Below, in pieces: positions 47,911 to 56,428 of a stretch of 56,428 nt of DNA. Each line of letters starts with the position of its first letter. The stretch's first letter is position 1. Source of the DNA: Acidobacteriota bacterium. GTDB taxonomy: Bacteria; Acidobacteriota; Terriglobia; Bryobacterales; Bryobacteraceae. The stretch spans positions 1-56,428 of the forward strand of contig VFZO01000012.1 of the NCBI GenBank assembly GCA_016871155.1. Reading direction: 5' to 3'. Position numbers and translations under genes: made by a program. The notes under the pieces were generated by a model. That model ran no database searches and was not told where the DNA came from. It saw only the letters and a program-made list of their open reading frames with translations.

Positions 47911-48005
47911 CTCCGCACGGGGTCCTCCCGAATGGGGTCGCCTCCCGAATGGGGCCTCCCGCATGGGGTCGGGGCCTCCCGCATGGCTCCCGCATGGCTC
48001 CCGCA
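47911..48005. repeat. Iterated tip units left of element copy 1
   Basis: Several imperfect tandem copies of a 12-17-base unit resembling ctcccgcatggggtc, leading into the element's own terminal tgggGTCAGTCACC. Parallel iterations flank the right end and the second element. Confidence 0.7.
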
Positions 48006-48687
48006 TGGGGTCAGTCACCTCTGCCACCAGACCTCCGCACTCAACGTTTCCGTTCCGCGCGCCTGCAACGGCGCTCATGCCGGCCCGGAACAACCGTCTT
48101 GCACGACGGCTCACCTTCCTCAGGCGCCGCTGTAATAAAGAGAAACAAAAGCACTTCCTCCCTGACGACCACCATCGCGCCCTCGACTTCCACCTAGCCG
48201 GCCCCCGGCCTTCCGCACCTCCATACTGGCATGCTTGCGAACGCCAAGCCACATTCACCTTGCCCCTATACCGCGCGGCAAGAACCCCTGTTTCAGCGTG
48301 ATCGCCGCGAATACGCCTCGATCCCTACGCCAACCTCAGCAGCGTAAGCCGCTCATTCCAAGCACTTTACTGCCCCACTCCCGACGTAGCGAACATTTCT
48401 GCCACACAATGTTCTAGGTTGAGCAATATCGCCGCCGAGTGGCCCCCAAAGGGCCGGAATCGCACCCAGCCCGGTCCCGCGGTTGCGCAGTACGCTGACC
48501 CCTGAACCAGCGCGTGTACCGCACCCCTCCGAGTCCTGAAAGTCACTGCTAGACAACGGCTTATCGGAGTCGACACAAGCACAATTCCAGCTCCCGTCTG
48601 ATCCAGAAGCCGCAACTTTCGAACCATCAACTACTCACAACCAAATCGCCGGCCCGGGGCTGCGAGTGCCAGCGGTGACTGACCCCA
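48006..48687. mobile_element. 682-bp TIR element, copy 1 (MITE-like)
   Basis: Bounded by a perfect 14-bp inverted repeat, TGGGGTCAGTCACC at 48006-48019 and its complement at 48674-48687. The body is about 91% identical by hand count to 51631-52312, at the same length of 682 bases and in the same orientation. No transposase is encoded. Two minus-strand open frames (48367-48630, and one through about 48000-48258) also persist in copy 2. The tips resemble GGGGTCAG-type ends of REP/RAYT-associated repeats. Class and mechanism are inference. Confidence 0.65.
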
Positions 48688-48719
48688 CGAGCCGACCCCA
48701 CGAGCCGACCCCACAAGCC
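48681..48719. repeat. 13-base tandem units at right end of copy 1
   Basis: Three consecutive 13-base units, gaccccacgagcc twice and gaccccacaagcc once. The first overlaps the terminal inverted repeat, so these are duplications of the element tip. Confidence 0.75.
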
Positions 48720-48906
48720 CCGGCGATTGTCGGGCGAGACAAGAGGCACACGTCCTGCCCATCGTTCTCGATAAGTTCCGGTCGGCTACTCCTCGGCGAG
48801 GCGGGCGCCACCAGATCCCGCCTCCGCTTCACCGCCACTTTTCCCTCGATTCGCTGGCGTTATTCACCGCCAGCATTTATCATTGACCCGTAGACACACC
48901 TAAGCT

Positions 48907-51465
48907 ATGTCGCACCAGCCAGAGTTTGACGCGACGCGCACCCAGCATTCCGATTCCACGCTCGAACGGTCGAGGCCCGATCTGGGGGCGGCGGCGGGCG
49001 CGACTTTCAGGGGTTTCCGCATCTTGCGCCTGCTCGGCGAAGGCGGCATGGGTGCGGTCTACGAAGCGGAAGAAGCGGAAACCGGGCGTATTGTTGCATT
49101 GAAGCTCGCGCGCCCGTCTGTTTCGATGGATGCGGCAGAGAGAGACCGCCTGCTGAACGAGGCCCGCTTGGCTGCCTCCATCAGCCATCCCAATTGCGTG
49201 TTCGTGTACGGATCGCACCAAGATGGCGAGGGCATCGCGATCGCGATGGAAATGGTGCGAGGCCACACTGTGAAAGACGTCGTGGAGCGATTCGGCGCAA
49301 TGTCCGTCGATCGCGCGGTGCAATGCACGCTGGACATCCTGGCGGGATTGGAAGCGGCGCACGAGAAGGGCGTCCTGCATCGTGACATCAAGCCGGCGAA
49401 CGTGTTCGTGGACCAGTTGACCGGCCAGGCTAAGGTCGGGGACTTCGGCTTGTCGCTGAGTTACACGGCGACCGAGTTGAAGAAAGGATCGAAGTCGTTT
49501 GCCGGGACCCCGGCGTATGCCTCACCGGAGCAGTTGCAGGGCTCGCCGCTCGAGCACCGTAGCGATATCTATTCCGCCGCGGCAACGCTCTACTATATGC
49601 TCACCGGACGGGCGCCCTTCATCGAAGTGGACATCATCCAGCTTGTGGCGTCGATCGCCGGCCGCATGCCGGAGCCGCCCTCTCAATGGAACACCGCAGT
49701 GAAGCCGGAACTCGACGCGGTCGTGCTGCGCGCGCTGGCCAAAAAGCCTGACGAGCGCTTTCCGGATTACGCCTCGTTTCGCGCCGCCCTGGTGCCCGAA
49801 CCGGCGGCGCCGTTGCCGCGACGCCTCGCGGCCGGCATGATTGACGCGGCGCTCACCGCAACGTCGCTAGCGGCGAACCTGGCCGCCGGCATCTCCCCAG
49901 CGAGCCCGCTGGGACACGTGGTGGAAGATGTCTCGAGCATCATCCTGTATACATCGTTTGGAGCGATGGAAGGCCATCTCGGGTTCACGCCCGGCAAGTG
50001 GCTGTACGGCTTGCGAGTCCGTCGCGGACTCCGCAACGCGGGGTGGCGCGCTGGACTCTGGCGCGGATTCCTCTTCGCCCTGCTGCAGAACGGATTGGCG
50101 TTCGGGGCCGGGCTGGCTTCCGGCCACGCGTTGGGTTGGCGGTTCAAACTGGATTTGCAGGCTGGAGCATGGACGACGGCAATCATGCTGATGGAATTCG
50201 CTGGGGTCGCCATTGCATTCCTGACGGCTCGCTCGGCCAACGGGTGGCAGGGGCTGCACGACCGCTTGTCCGGGACGCGTGTCACCCGGGTGAGCCGGAG
50301 TGGCGCGGGTTTGTCAAAGCTGGAGCCGGTGCAAAGAGTGGATCCTTCGGCGTCGAGACCTGCCGGTCCGTTTCTGGTTGCGGCGGAGGCCGCGTCGCCG
50401 GGCGTCGCCGTAGCATGGGACCCAATACTCGAACGCAACGTCTGGCTCGTGGAGCATGCGCCCGGCACTCCGCCGCTGCCAACGGCACGCCGCGAGACTA
50501 TCCGGCGCGGCGCGCTGCGCTGGATTGGCGGGCTGCGGACCTCCGCCAAAGCGTGGGACGCATTCGAATACCCCGGCGGCGGGCCCTTGCTGGGCTACCG
50601 GCGCATCGACGAAGTTGGCCAACTGGCTACCCTGCTCGCCGATCTTGCCGCGGAACTGCCCCCTGAAGCGGAGAACTTGGACCTGCGGCGGGTTTGGATC
50701 GCCGGCGATCACGGCGTGGTGTGCGACTTCCCGGTGGCATCCGAGCCCATGATCGCTCCGCTCGAAAGCGGCGCCCCTGCGTTCCTGCGGCGCTGCGCCT
50801 CGGAAGCCTTGTCTCACGGCAGCAGCATTCCGCTCCCCGTAGGCGAGGTTCTTGGAGATTTGGAGCGGGGCACGCTCAACCTCGCCGAGGCCTCCTCCCG
50901 TTTGCGATCGCTCGCCGAATCGGGTGGATGCACGGTGACCCGGGTCCGGCGTCTGGTCCAGATGCTGGTTGGGAACTGGGCCCCGGCGTCCTTGGCCGCG
51001 GTGGTGGCTGTTGATTTTGCCTTGGGCCCGAGTTGGCGTGGCTTTCGGGAATTGCGCGAGATTCCGATGTTCTTCGCCGGACTCTCAATCGCCGCCGGAC
51101 TTCTCTTTACCGCGGCCACGGGCGCTCCGCTTTCGATGTCGATGACCGGCCTCGCGTTCACGGACCGCAACGGGGCTCGCGCTCCCCGCTGGCGCGCTCT
51201 GGCGCGCCTCGCCTTGCCGCTGCTGATCTGGCTGGCGATCCTGTTCGCCGTGCTCCAACACGAATCGTCGAAACTGTCGCCGCTGTCCGCACAGGGAGAC
51301 GTATTCCAGCAATTTGGGAAACGGCTGGGCGCCGCTTCGAGGGAAATGGGTTGGGCGTTCGGGTCCTACTGGTTGCTGGTGATCCCGCAGTGGCTGTTCG
51401 CCCTGCGGACCCCGTCGCGGGGAATCCTGGAGCGCATCACTGGGCTCTGGATCTCCCGCACCTGA
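48907..51465 (+). CDS. Ser/Thr protein kinase with two RDD-type membrane domains
   Basis: 852 residues. The Hanks-type kinase domain (about 35-295) is intact: glycine loop GEGGMGAVYEA (44 on), ATP Lys66 in VALKLARP, HRDIKPANV with Asp160, and GDFGLSLS. SPEQLQGSPLEHRSDIYS holds the APE-like activation segment end. Residues 300-460 form an RDD-like membrane domain (GFTPGKWLYGLRVR, WQGLHDRLSGTRVTR). The middle (about 480-680) is soluble and unrecognised. A second membrane RDD-like domain follows (GPSWRGFRELR, MSMTGLAFTDRNG). It probably senses a membrane signal and phosphorylates cytoplasmic targets. Direct copies of a 682-bp element lie on both sides, 219 and 165 bases away. Confidence 0.9.
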   Translation: MSHQPEFDATRTQHSDSTLERSRPDLGAAAGATFRGFRILRLLGEGGMGAVYEAEEAETGRIVALKLARPSVSMDAAERDRLLNEARLAASISHPNCVFVYGSHQDGEGIAIAMEMVRGHTVKDVVERFGAMSVDRAVQCTLDILAGLEAAHEKGVLHRDIKPANVFVDQLTGQAKVGDFGLSLSYTATELKKGSKSFAGTPAYASPEQLQGSPLEHRSDIYSAAATLYYMLTGRAPFIEVDIIQLVASIAGRMPEPPSQWNTAVKPELDAVVLRALAKKPDERFPDYASFRAALVPEPAAPLPRRLAAGMIDAALTATSLAANLAAGISPASPLGHVVEDVSSIILYTSFGAMEGHLGFTPGKWLYGLRVRRGLRNAGWRAGLWRGFLFALLQNGLAFGAGLASGHALGWRFKLDLQAGAWTTAIMLMEFAGVAIAFLTARSANGWQGLHDRLSGTRVTRVSRSGAGLSKLEPVQRVDPSASRPAGPFLVAAEAASPGVAVAWDPILERNVWLVEHAPGTPPLPTARRETIRRGALRWIGGLRTSAKAWDAFEYPGGGPLLGYRRIDEVGQLATLLADLAAELPPEAENLDLRRVWIAGDHGVVCDFPVASEPMIAPLESGAPAFLRRCASEALSHGSSIPLPVGEVLGDLERGTLNLAEASSRLRSLAESGGCTVTRVRRLVQMLVGNWAPASLAAVVAVDFALGPSWRGFRELREIPMFFAGLSIAAGLLFTAATGAPLSMSMTGLAFTDRNGARAPRWRALARLALPLLIWLAILFAVLQHESSKLSPLSAQGDVFQQFGKRLGAASREMGWAFGSYWLLVIPQWLFALRTPSRGILERITGLWISRT

Positions 51466-51603
51466 GGCCGGACGGCTACGTCTTGGCGGTGTTCGCCGGG
51501 ACTTTGGCGATGGCGACTACGAGTTCGCATCCGTTGAATGGAGGGTTGACTCACGAGACTGACCCGAAGGGAGTTTACGCCGGGCTTACCCGCGTTCTCA
51601 GCC

Positions 51604-51630
51604 CTTCCCGCATGGGGTCTCCTTCCCGCA
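51604..51630. repeat. Iterated tip units left of element copy 2
   Basis: One full unit, cttcccgcatggggtct, and the first half of a second lead into the copy 2 end. They match the copy 1 flank in motif but not in unit length. Confidence 0.65.
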
Positions 51631-52312
51631 CGGGGTCAGTCACCTCTGCCACCAGACCTCCGCACTCAACGTTTCCGTTCCGCGCGCCTGCAACGGCGCT
51701 CATGCCGGCCCGGAACAACCGTCTTGCACGACGGCTCACTTTCCTCAGGCGCCGCTGTAATAAAAAGAAACAAAAGCACTTCCTCCCTGCCGACCACCAT
51801 CGCGCCCACGACCTCCACCTGACCGGCCCCCGGCCTTCCGCACCTCCATACTGGCATACTTGGGAATGCAAAGCCACATTCACCTTGCCCCCATACCGCT
51901 CGCCAACATCCCCTGTTTCGGCGGGATCGGGGCGAATACACGCCGGTACCCACGCTAATCTAAGCAGTGTAAGTCGCTCATTCCAAGCACTTTACTACTC
52001 CACTCCCGACGTATCGAACATTTCTGCCACACAATGTTCTAGGTCGAGCAATATCGCCGCCGAGTGGCCCCCAAATGGCCGGAATCGCACCCAGCCCTGT
52101 CCCGCGGTTGCGCAGTACGCTGACCCCTGAACCAGCCCGCGTACCGCACCCCTCCGAGTCCTGAAAGTCACTGCTAGACAGTGGCTTATCTCAGTCGACA
52201 CAAGCACAATTCCGGCTCCCGTCTGATCCAGAAGCAACAACTTTCAAACCATCAACTACTCACAACCGAATCGCTGCTGCAGCCCGGCCGGTGCCAGAAG
52301 TGACTGACCCCA
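51631..52312. mobile_element. 682-bp TIR element, copy 2 (MITE-like)
   Basis: Same length and orientation as 48006-48687, with about 60 differences by hand count. Its ends pair over 12 bases: GGGGTCAGTCAC near 51632 and the complement at 52300-52311. The minus-strand open frames seen in copy 1 persist (51995-52240 here ends at TSGVE). Differences cluster around 51890-51970 and in the last 45 bases, and are few elsewhere. Confidence 0.65.
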
Positions 52313-52341
52313 CAAGCACAAGCGACCCCACAAGCACAAGC
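52306..52341. repeat. 18-base tandem units at right end of copy 2
   Basis: Two perfect copies of gaccccacaagcacaagc, the first overlapping the terminal inverted repeat. The unit differs in length from the 13-base unit of copy 1, so the iterations arose independently. Confidence 0.75.
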
Positions 52342-55498: not shown

Positions 55499-56063
55499 CC
55501 TCCGCCACCCTGGCCGCGGAATGCCGGAAGTCCGAGGTGACTTAAGAACGCCCGGTGCCGGCCGCCGGTGCGCCGCTCCTCTTCGATCGCATCCGGACAC
55601 CGTAAGACGGGCCGCCTTCGAAACGGACGAAGTGTAGGTTGGCGTAATTCCCGGTTGCTCCTGCAAACAGGGCAGCCTGTGAAGACACAGCCCCACGGAA
55701 CTTGCCGGATCAAAATAAAGACTCCCTCGGCCTCGTGGCGAAATTGAAAGGCCGCAATCCCGTTCGTCTTTCGCGGGGCTCAGCAACAACTTGGCCAGGC
55801 ACTCCAGAGAGACCCGGTCCCCTTCGATCAAGACGAGGGGAACCCCCTCCGGGCACTCGCCTTCGCCAACGCGTGTCTTCGCGGCTCACCCGGTCAACCC
55901 CTCCCATGCCGTCCCAAATACGCCGGAACCTCTTGGCCAGTCCCGATCAGAACCCCGAAAAACCGCACCCTCCGAAAACCTTCGAAAAATTTTCCTTCCA
56001 TCATTTCAACCACTTCCGGCAAAAACGGCGCCCAATCACATCCGTTTCCAGTTGACGCCTCTC
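55499..56063. other. Intergenic, no gene supported
   Basis: About 565 bases with several open frames on both strands, none with family features, a good start or a coherent sequence. A GC-rich inverted stretch lies near 55555-55580. I see no RNA gene. Confidence 0.5.
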
Positions 56064-56069
56064 TATAAT
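56064..56069 (+). promoter_or_regulatory. Perfect -10 box for the 56150 gene
   Basis: TATAAT at 56064-56069. A TTGACG at 56052-56057 is only 6 bases upstream, so it cannot serve as the -35; the 17-base position shows only a weak match. Transcription starting near 56076 would make a 60-base leader ending at the terminator-like hairpin. Confidence 0.45.
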
Positions 56070-56100
56070 CTGTACAGGAAGCGCAACGCGCCCCCCCAAC

Positions 56101-56136
56101 AAAGCCTCCGGCCAACCCCCGGGGGCTTTCCTTTTT
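56101..56136 (+). terminator. Terminator/attenuator-like hairpin in the leader of the 56150 gene
   Basis: An 11-bp stem (56101-56111 with 56119-56129, one G-U pair), a 7-base loop, then CCTTTTT. It lies immediately before the Shine-Dalgarno (AGGAG near 56139) of the gene starting at 56150. It would stop transcription before the gene unless read through. Confidence 0.65.
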
Positions 56137-56149
56137 CAGGAGATCCGTC

Positions 56150-56428
56150 ATGTCACAGGAAAAGAATTCGCGGTCCGAACAGGCCCGCATCAACGGCGCC
56201 AAGTCCAAAGGCCCCAAAACACAGGAAGGCAAGGCGAAGTGCGCCCGCGTCAACATCACCCACGCCGCCTATGTCGCTCACCAGTCCACCCTGTCGCACG
56301 AAGACCAGAACGGCTACGCCGCCGTCTGGCTCGCCGCCATGGACCAGTTCAATCCGCGGAACGCCTTCGAGCTCGAAATCGTCGCCCTCCTCGTCGACCA
56401 CCAATGGGCCACCGCCCGTCTCACCGCC
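56150..56428 (+). CDS. GAKSKGP-type hypothetical protein, partial (first 93 residues)
   Basis: The start (ATG 56150, AGGAG about 8 bases upstream) is clear and the frame is still open at the window end. The N-terminus EQARINGAKSKGPKTQEGKA is the motif typical of a large acidobacterial/planctomycete family of unknown function, often annotated only as hypothetical. A second half-conserved region (FNPRNAFELEIVALLVDHQW) follows. Repeated paralogues of this family are common in such genomes and suggest mobility, but that is not shown here. Confidence 0.8.
   Translation, partial: MSQEKNSRSEQARINGAKSKGPKTQEGKAKCARVNITHAAYVAHQSTLSHEDQNGYAAVWLAAMDQFNPRNAFELEIVALLVDHQWATARLTA

Follow-up and report, generated by a model that had tools for sequence, protein, structure and literature searches.

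The window, the whole stretch of 56,428 nt that was analysed, corresponds to contig C12 in a draft assembly (G000; 577 contigs, 7.2 Mb in total, with a contamination estimate of 6.54%). The contig fits this genome, since the best matches to its nitrilase gene from the same genus are 75-76% identical. Two direct repeats of 682 nt each, at 48006-48687 and 51631-52312, bracket a gene with Pkinase and RDD domains. The repeats are identical at 621 of 682 positions (91.1%) with no indels, 33 of the 61 differences being transitions, and a gapless match of this kind has a chance probability of about 1e-293 on a uniform-base estimate. The ends of both copies are inverted repeats (TGGGGTCAGTCACC). The coordinates, equal length, common orientation, identity of about 91% and inverted-repeat ends reported in the initial annotation are all borne out, and the outer limits it had set, 47911 and 52341, correspond to the outer edges of tandem arrays of tip fragments. 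The features are listed below.

47911..48005 (+): left array of copy 1; six truncated units with a linker similar to CTCCCGCAT, then the complete tip
48006..48687 (+): copy 1, predicted decayed TIRtron, TIR to TIR (repeat and alignment analysis)
48006..48027 (+): left terminal inverted repeat of copy 1; 22 nt, 91% complementary to 48666-48687
48211..48444 (+): stretch of copy 1 matching a Y1/HUH transposase, with a stop (tblastn with the C351 protein, E 5e-5)
48666..48687 (-): right terminal inverted repeat of copy 1; 22 nt, partner of 48006-48027
48688..48719 (-): right array of copy 1, in units of 13 nt with a linker similar to GGCTCGT on the - strand
51602..51630 (+): left array of copy 2; a single truncated unit, then the complete tip
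51631..52312 (+): copy 2, predicted decayed TIRtron, TIR to TIR (repeat and alignment analysis)
51632..51652 (+): left terminal inverted repeat of copy 2 (repeat search)
51836..52069 (+): stretch of copy 2 matching a Y1/HUH transposase, with stops (tblastn with the C351 protein, E 6e-4)
52290..52312 (-): right terminal inverted repeat of copy 2 (repeat search)
52313..52341 (-): right array of copy 2, in units of 18 nt

The ends of copy 2 lie inside a 41-nt pair (51613-51653 and 52290-52330) that is 73% complementary and takes in some bases of the arrays. As its first base is unlike that of copy 1, the tip proper of copy 2 begins at 51632.

Contig C351 of the same genome carries an apparently intact Y1_Tnp gene in an element with the same tips as the window copies. 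The 233-aa protein scores 43.3 bits against Pfam Y1_Tnp (cut-off 23), and H62, H64 and Y121 are invariant in an alignment of five proteins that includes it; we take these three to be the catalytic residues. Searched with this protein by tblastn, both copies show transposase relics, on the same strand, and at the nucleotide level the copies are ~61% identical to the C351 element (412/680 and 413/680). Relative to that element the two copies have an identical set of ten deletions, and in both a stop replaces a tyrosine that is invariant among the five aligned proteins, presumably the catalytic tyrosine. A Y1_Tnp domain with the HUH histidines and the tyrosine is found in the C351 gene and not in the window copies. 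The statement in the initial annotation that neither copy encodes a transposase holds in so far as there is no intact gene, but a recognisable relic is present in each. Sequence comparison thus shows in each copy the decayed remains of a Y1/HUH transposase gene and, because the same lesions break the gene in both, the copies arose after it decayed. The C351 gene is also the kind of Y1/RAYT-type transposase with matching tips that the initial annotation had suggested looking for elsewhere. Separately, nine contig ends in this genome (L017 to L025) carry what is apparently the same 105-bp piece of a Y1_Tnp gene, with equal coordinates, score and length; this is probably a multi-copy IS that broke the assembly.

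The tip GGGGTCAG, found on the C351 element and on both window copies, fits GGGGWSAS, which the available sections of PMC3733652 give as the tip motif of the genes for TIR-associated tyrosine transposases (TIRYT), naming an Acidobacteria subgroup. In the accessible part of PMC6006769, 20 of 26 TIRYT examples are assigned to TnpAREP subclass 2.1, with which RAYT group 1 is equated, and the C-terminal HTH extension is described as heterogeneous in part of that subclass. In a Pfam search at E 0.001 the matches of the C351 protein were to Y1_Tnp alone and a C-terminal helix-turn-helix was absent from them, though a divergent one could escape. Because the extension is undetected in this protein and heterogeneous in the subclass, we file the element as TIRYT and not firmly as subclass 2.1. 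The 80-bit cut-off of NCBIfam REP_Tyr_transpos was missed by the C351 protein (65 bits) and by L128 (74.3 bits), and was passed by L077 from the same genus (80.6 bits). At the ends of the copies there are GGGGTCAG inverted repeats and not GT[AG]G-footed palindromic REPs; we class the copies as TIRtron relics and not as REPs. The resemblance to REP/RAYT-type tips proposed in the initial annotation was therefore close to the mark, the tips fitting the TIRYT motif and a Y1_Tnp gene with the same tips being present in the genome. A literature search for GGGGTCAG together with transposase returned no title on bacterial TIRs.

Hairpins at the tips were considered as a general TIRYT feature and rejected for this set, with no general excess across 114 TIRYT tips compared with 298 control 26-mers (p = 0.80). 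Good hairpins around a GGGACAG core were seen at L152, L155, L170 and L128, with a z of about -7 to -8 at L152, and TIRYT subclasses may differ in this respect.

Consistent with the suggestion that copies would occur at other sites of the genome, the 682-nt sequence has 13 matching places, of which 11, spread over 10 other contigs, fall outside the window; the tip alone (23-32 nt) accounts for five of these 11. Exact tips number 13, on nine contigs, with none in the reversed control. Two partial copies lie outside the window, on C202 (376 aligned nt, 77% to copy 1) and C324 (321 aligned nt, 71%). The C202 copy shares with the window copies the stop and the deletions of 10 and 11 nt, while that on C324 has the 11-nt deletion, most of a deletion of roughly 70 nt, and the stop. 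In the lesion alignment the two are 67-71% alike to the window copies, with small differences of their own, and two good tips were seen on neither. As both carry the main lesions of the window copies, the family spread after its death. What would be expected of a MITE-like passenger, namely the tips of a live element and several dispersed copies with common lesions, is found here. Since no clean two-sided empty site was found in the loci examined, we infer the movement of the family from its dispersal; the family is dead and non-autonomous and was probably spread in trans.

Empty sites in relatives, a further expectation of the initial annotation, were not found for the unit. At 29 loci of the neighbouring nitrilase (tblastn, flank of at most 1500 nt) the search recovered the nitrilase, but not the kinase and not the gene on the far side of copy 2. 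Four of 19 genomes, its own included, match the RHS-like flank of the C216 element; next to the tip array of this element, in L010 (1603-2568, +), is a coding sequence of RHS-like type that is seemingly cut at its 5' end. For an array locus from Novosphingobium, 70 of 195 genomes matched, and among the matches listed no split match was usable as an empty site. At an array locus of G261, which from the strain label of L177 we take to be Mesorhizobium-like, 145 of 146 genomes matched; L228 gave a one-sided boundary, homology stopping directly before the AATTAC of the neighbouring element in L222, and L229, L230, L231 and L232 gave none. Of 72,556 plasmid records, 15 matched, all below 60% identity. 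The Novosphingobium search also turned up a short sequence (L202, ~1260-1317) that is present in many genomes, often as inverted pairs ~70-130 nt apart, and is a separate small repeat family.

Just outside the tips in this genome stand tandem units of a short linker and a truncated tip, with the complete tip innermost. In the window such arrays occupy both edges of the copies, the place where target duplications would be sought. In the left array of copy 1 the tip part of a unit ends after GG, GGGG or GGGGTC, and the seventh unit is the complete tip. Counted with the complete tip, there are seven left units at copy 1 and two at copy 2, so array length varies between bodies that differ by no indel. 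The linkers vary from element to element, and the two ends of a single element can have different ones: the C351 element has TCTCTCAT on the left and TCGGTC on the right, C118 has GCAAGT and C458 has GTACATTT. The elements on C216 and C79 have linker and gene in common, and the linkers on C132 and C325 are close to that of copy 1, so the arrays seem to travel with the element. That the linkers are purely target sequence was not established, C216 and C79 having gene and linker in common. A pattern of three tip fragments (GGGGTC) has seven matches in G000, none in the reversed control and none in 18 other genomes of the genus. As TIRYT-like genes are present in 15 of the 19 genus genomes and the pattern in G000 alone, the GGGGTC type of tip is special to this genome within the genus sample.

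The genes that stand behind the GGGGTCAGTCACC tips with arrays on C216 and C79 belong to a family with the motif NGAKSKGPKT.EGKAK, which had no match in Pfam, NCBIfam or PHROGs. Members lie at the end of the window (55938-56428, +, with the gene from ~56150), in L010 (630-1340, -) and in L013. Identity to the window copy is 82.5% over 504 nt, and the C216 and C79 copies are 87% identical to each other. The window copy is without a tip, and no second tip was recognised at these genes.

The kinase-RDD gene has one matching place in its own genome at E 1e-100 (protein search) and no homologue at this threshold in 40 relatives, which makes it an accessory gene. When the whole block was compared by DNA with 61 genomes including its own, there were elsewhere only short matches in the kinase part, which we take to be other kinases. 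We consider it very probable that the copies are sister dead elements derived from a TIRtron and moved in trans, with arrays at their ends and the kinase gene as a bystander. The ancestor would have been a Y1 (HUH) TIRYT-type transposase gene between terminal inverted repeats starting GGGGTCAGTCACC, the gene being broken first and the copies made afterwards. The element would have retained its tips and was most likely mobilised in trans, as a MITE-like passenger, by a live TIRYT such as that on C351. The kinase gene would simply have come to lie between two copies, and the arrays would probably form at the ends of the element during or after the action of the transposase.

The initial annotation had compared the locus to a composite transposon with the copies as ends and the kinase-RDD gene as cargo. 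This now appears very improbable: both copies are dead, the kinase has a single place in the genome at E 1e-100, no empty site was found, and it is the copies and not the block that are dispersed, even though the same orientation of the copies around the gene and the lack of a kinase homologue at E 1e-100 in the 40 relatives would suit such a structure. Alternatively, the element could have transposed here only once, ordinary recombination then placing a duplicate of the insertion 3.6 kb away. We think a local segmental duplication of this kind unlikely, because homology between the copies stops at the edges of the arrays on both sides, beyond which the flanks are unrelated (30-38% identity across 40-100 nt), and because linkers in common are also seen at unlinked copies (C216 and C79, with C132 and C325 close to copy 1). 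It would nevertheless account for the closeness and same orientation of the copies and for the linkers that they have in common (on the left similar to TCCCGCA, on the right to CACAAGC). The differences between the copies are also clustered (longest identical run 108 nt, at most 21 differences per 100-nt window; shuffle p 0.0014 and 0.0016), which suggests exchange between them or uneven constraint; exchange would speak for a duplication of this kind.

The arrays were followed in other bacteria at TIRYT-like loci, taken as the best 80 of 561 confirmed stretches; GGGGWSAS lies within ~300-350 nt of the gene at 39 of these 80. Windows outside and inside the tips could be compared at 58 of the 80 loci, from many phyla, that have a TIR pair with a G[AT]CA core. 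At the remaining 22 the flank was too short, no TIR pair reached the score applied, or the G[AT]CA core was lacking. The 58 loci provided 116 tips, with 111 outer and 112 inner windows usable. Among these loci from the best 80 of 561, tandem repeats were present in 46 of 111 outer windows compared with 18 of 112 inner windows and 481 of 2761 background windows (17%), an excess with p 9e-9 against background and 3e-5 against the inner windows; some of the 46 are not made of tips, since the test counts any tandem repeat. An outer tandem repeat occurs at 41 of the 58 loci, with 23 left and 23 right ends. A stricter test for linker plus GGGG, which covered 56 of 57 tips from the same best 80 of 561, found it at 19 of 56 tips (17 of 37 loci), compared with 75 of 1732 other GGGG sites in the same loci. 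Truncated tips behind one linker are clearest at L162, L146, L160, L128 and L136. Arrays of linker and truncated tip thus recur at TIRYT elements of other bacteria, and no description of tip-fragment arrays at TIRYTs was found in the literature searched, which comprised papers outside subscription. In Novosphingobium sp. B 225 (L196, G061:C56) near-complete tips stand in tandem, four in ~110 nt, with units longer than elsewhere. A tip search that allowed up to 2 mismatches gave 15 matches in this strain and 0 with the reversed control.

Cleavage by an HUH enzyme yields a 3' end that is free and a 5' end bound to the tyrosine, so that a truncated unit could be gained on the outer side with every cycle. 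The transposase would nick a fixed site a few nucleotides outside the tip, synthesis from the freed 3' end would duplicate the linker together with a short part of the tip that varies in length, and the end held by the tyrosine would be resealed to the copied stretch, one truncated unit being gained per round. That TIRYT transposases stutter at their own ends in this way, the arrays being a fossil record of HUH nicking in many phyla, is a tentative idea and we hold it to be rather doubtful. A fixed start with a variable stop was not established: in 26 arrays of at least three units, from 130 tips, the mean within-array variance was 2.2 for starts and 5.6 for stops, which is the expected direction and not significant (p = 0.13), 13 arrays behaving as expected, eight against, with five ties. 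A serious rival, which may well be right and to which we would give a little short of an even chance, is that replication slippage or microhomology-driven tandem duplication made the arrays with no role for the transposase. The lack of a significant difference in variance between unit starts and stops in those 26 arrays fits slippage, as do the 27 of 74 unit junctions that overlap, as expected of microhomology, and the 17% of background windows with tandem repeats (481/2761). Slippage sits less easily with the excess outside the tips (46/111 windows against 18/112 inside) and the linker repeats at 19 of 56 tips as opposed to 75 of 1732 other GGGG sites, both from the best 80 of 561 stretches, or with the two ends being affected alike (23 left, 23 right).

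The element adds a dead and probably trans-mobilised family to the thinly studied TIRYT class. The arrays matter more than the element, being common at the ends of TIRYT elements, mainly on the outer side, and easy to count in any genome. Should they be the work of the transposase, they would mark the sites of HUH nicking in the cell and provide an inexpensive assay of such enzymes.

Like known TIRtrons, the ancestor of the copies would have had a Y1/HUH transposase gene between GGGGWSAS inverted repeats; the window copies differ in being dead and in their arrays of linker and truncated tip, of which the accessible text of the published description makes no mention (PMC3733652, PMC6006769). 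The former source does state, in its available sections, that TIRs can occur as dimers or clusters and that large REP clusters take in flanking DNA (PMC3733652), and ends of rayt genes have been found between REPs in BIMEs, according to the part available of PMC2817692. With REPINs the copies have in common that they are non-autonomous, REPINs being presumably mobilised in trans by a RAYT, and tandem REPIN clusters likewise show ordered tandem repetition with flanking sequence included (PMC3116915, accessible part). In the same text, however, REPINs are short REP doublets and the repeated unit is a whole REPIN with its flanks (PMC3116915), whereas the unit of the window arrays consists of a short linker and part of a single tip. 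The copies also resemble MITEs in being bounded by TIRs, non-coding, present in several copies and derived from a transposon, although at 682 nt they exceed the 70-300 nt given for MITEs in the available sections of PMC3733652 and are still recognisable as the parental gene.
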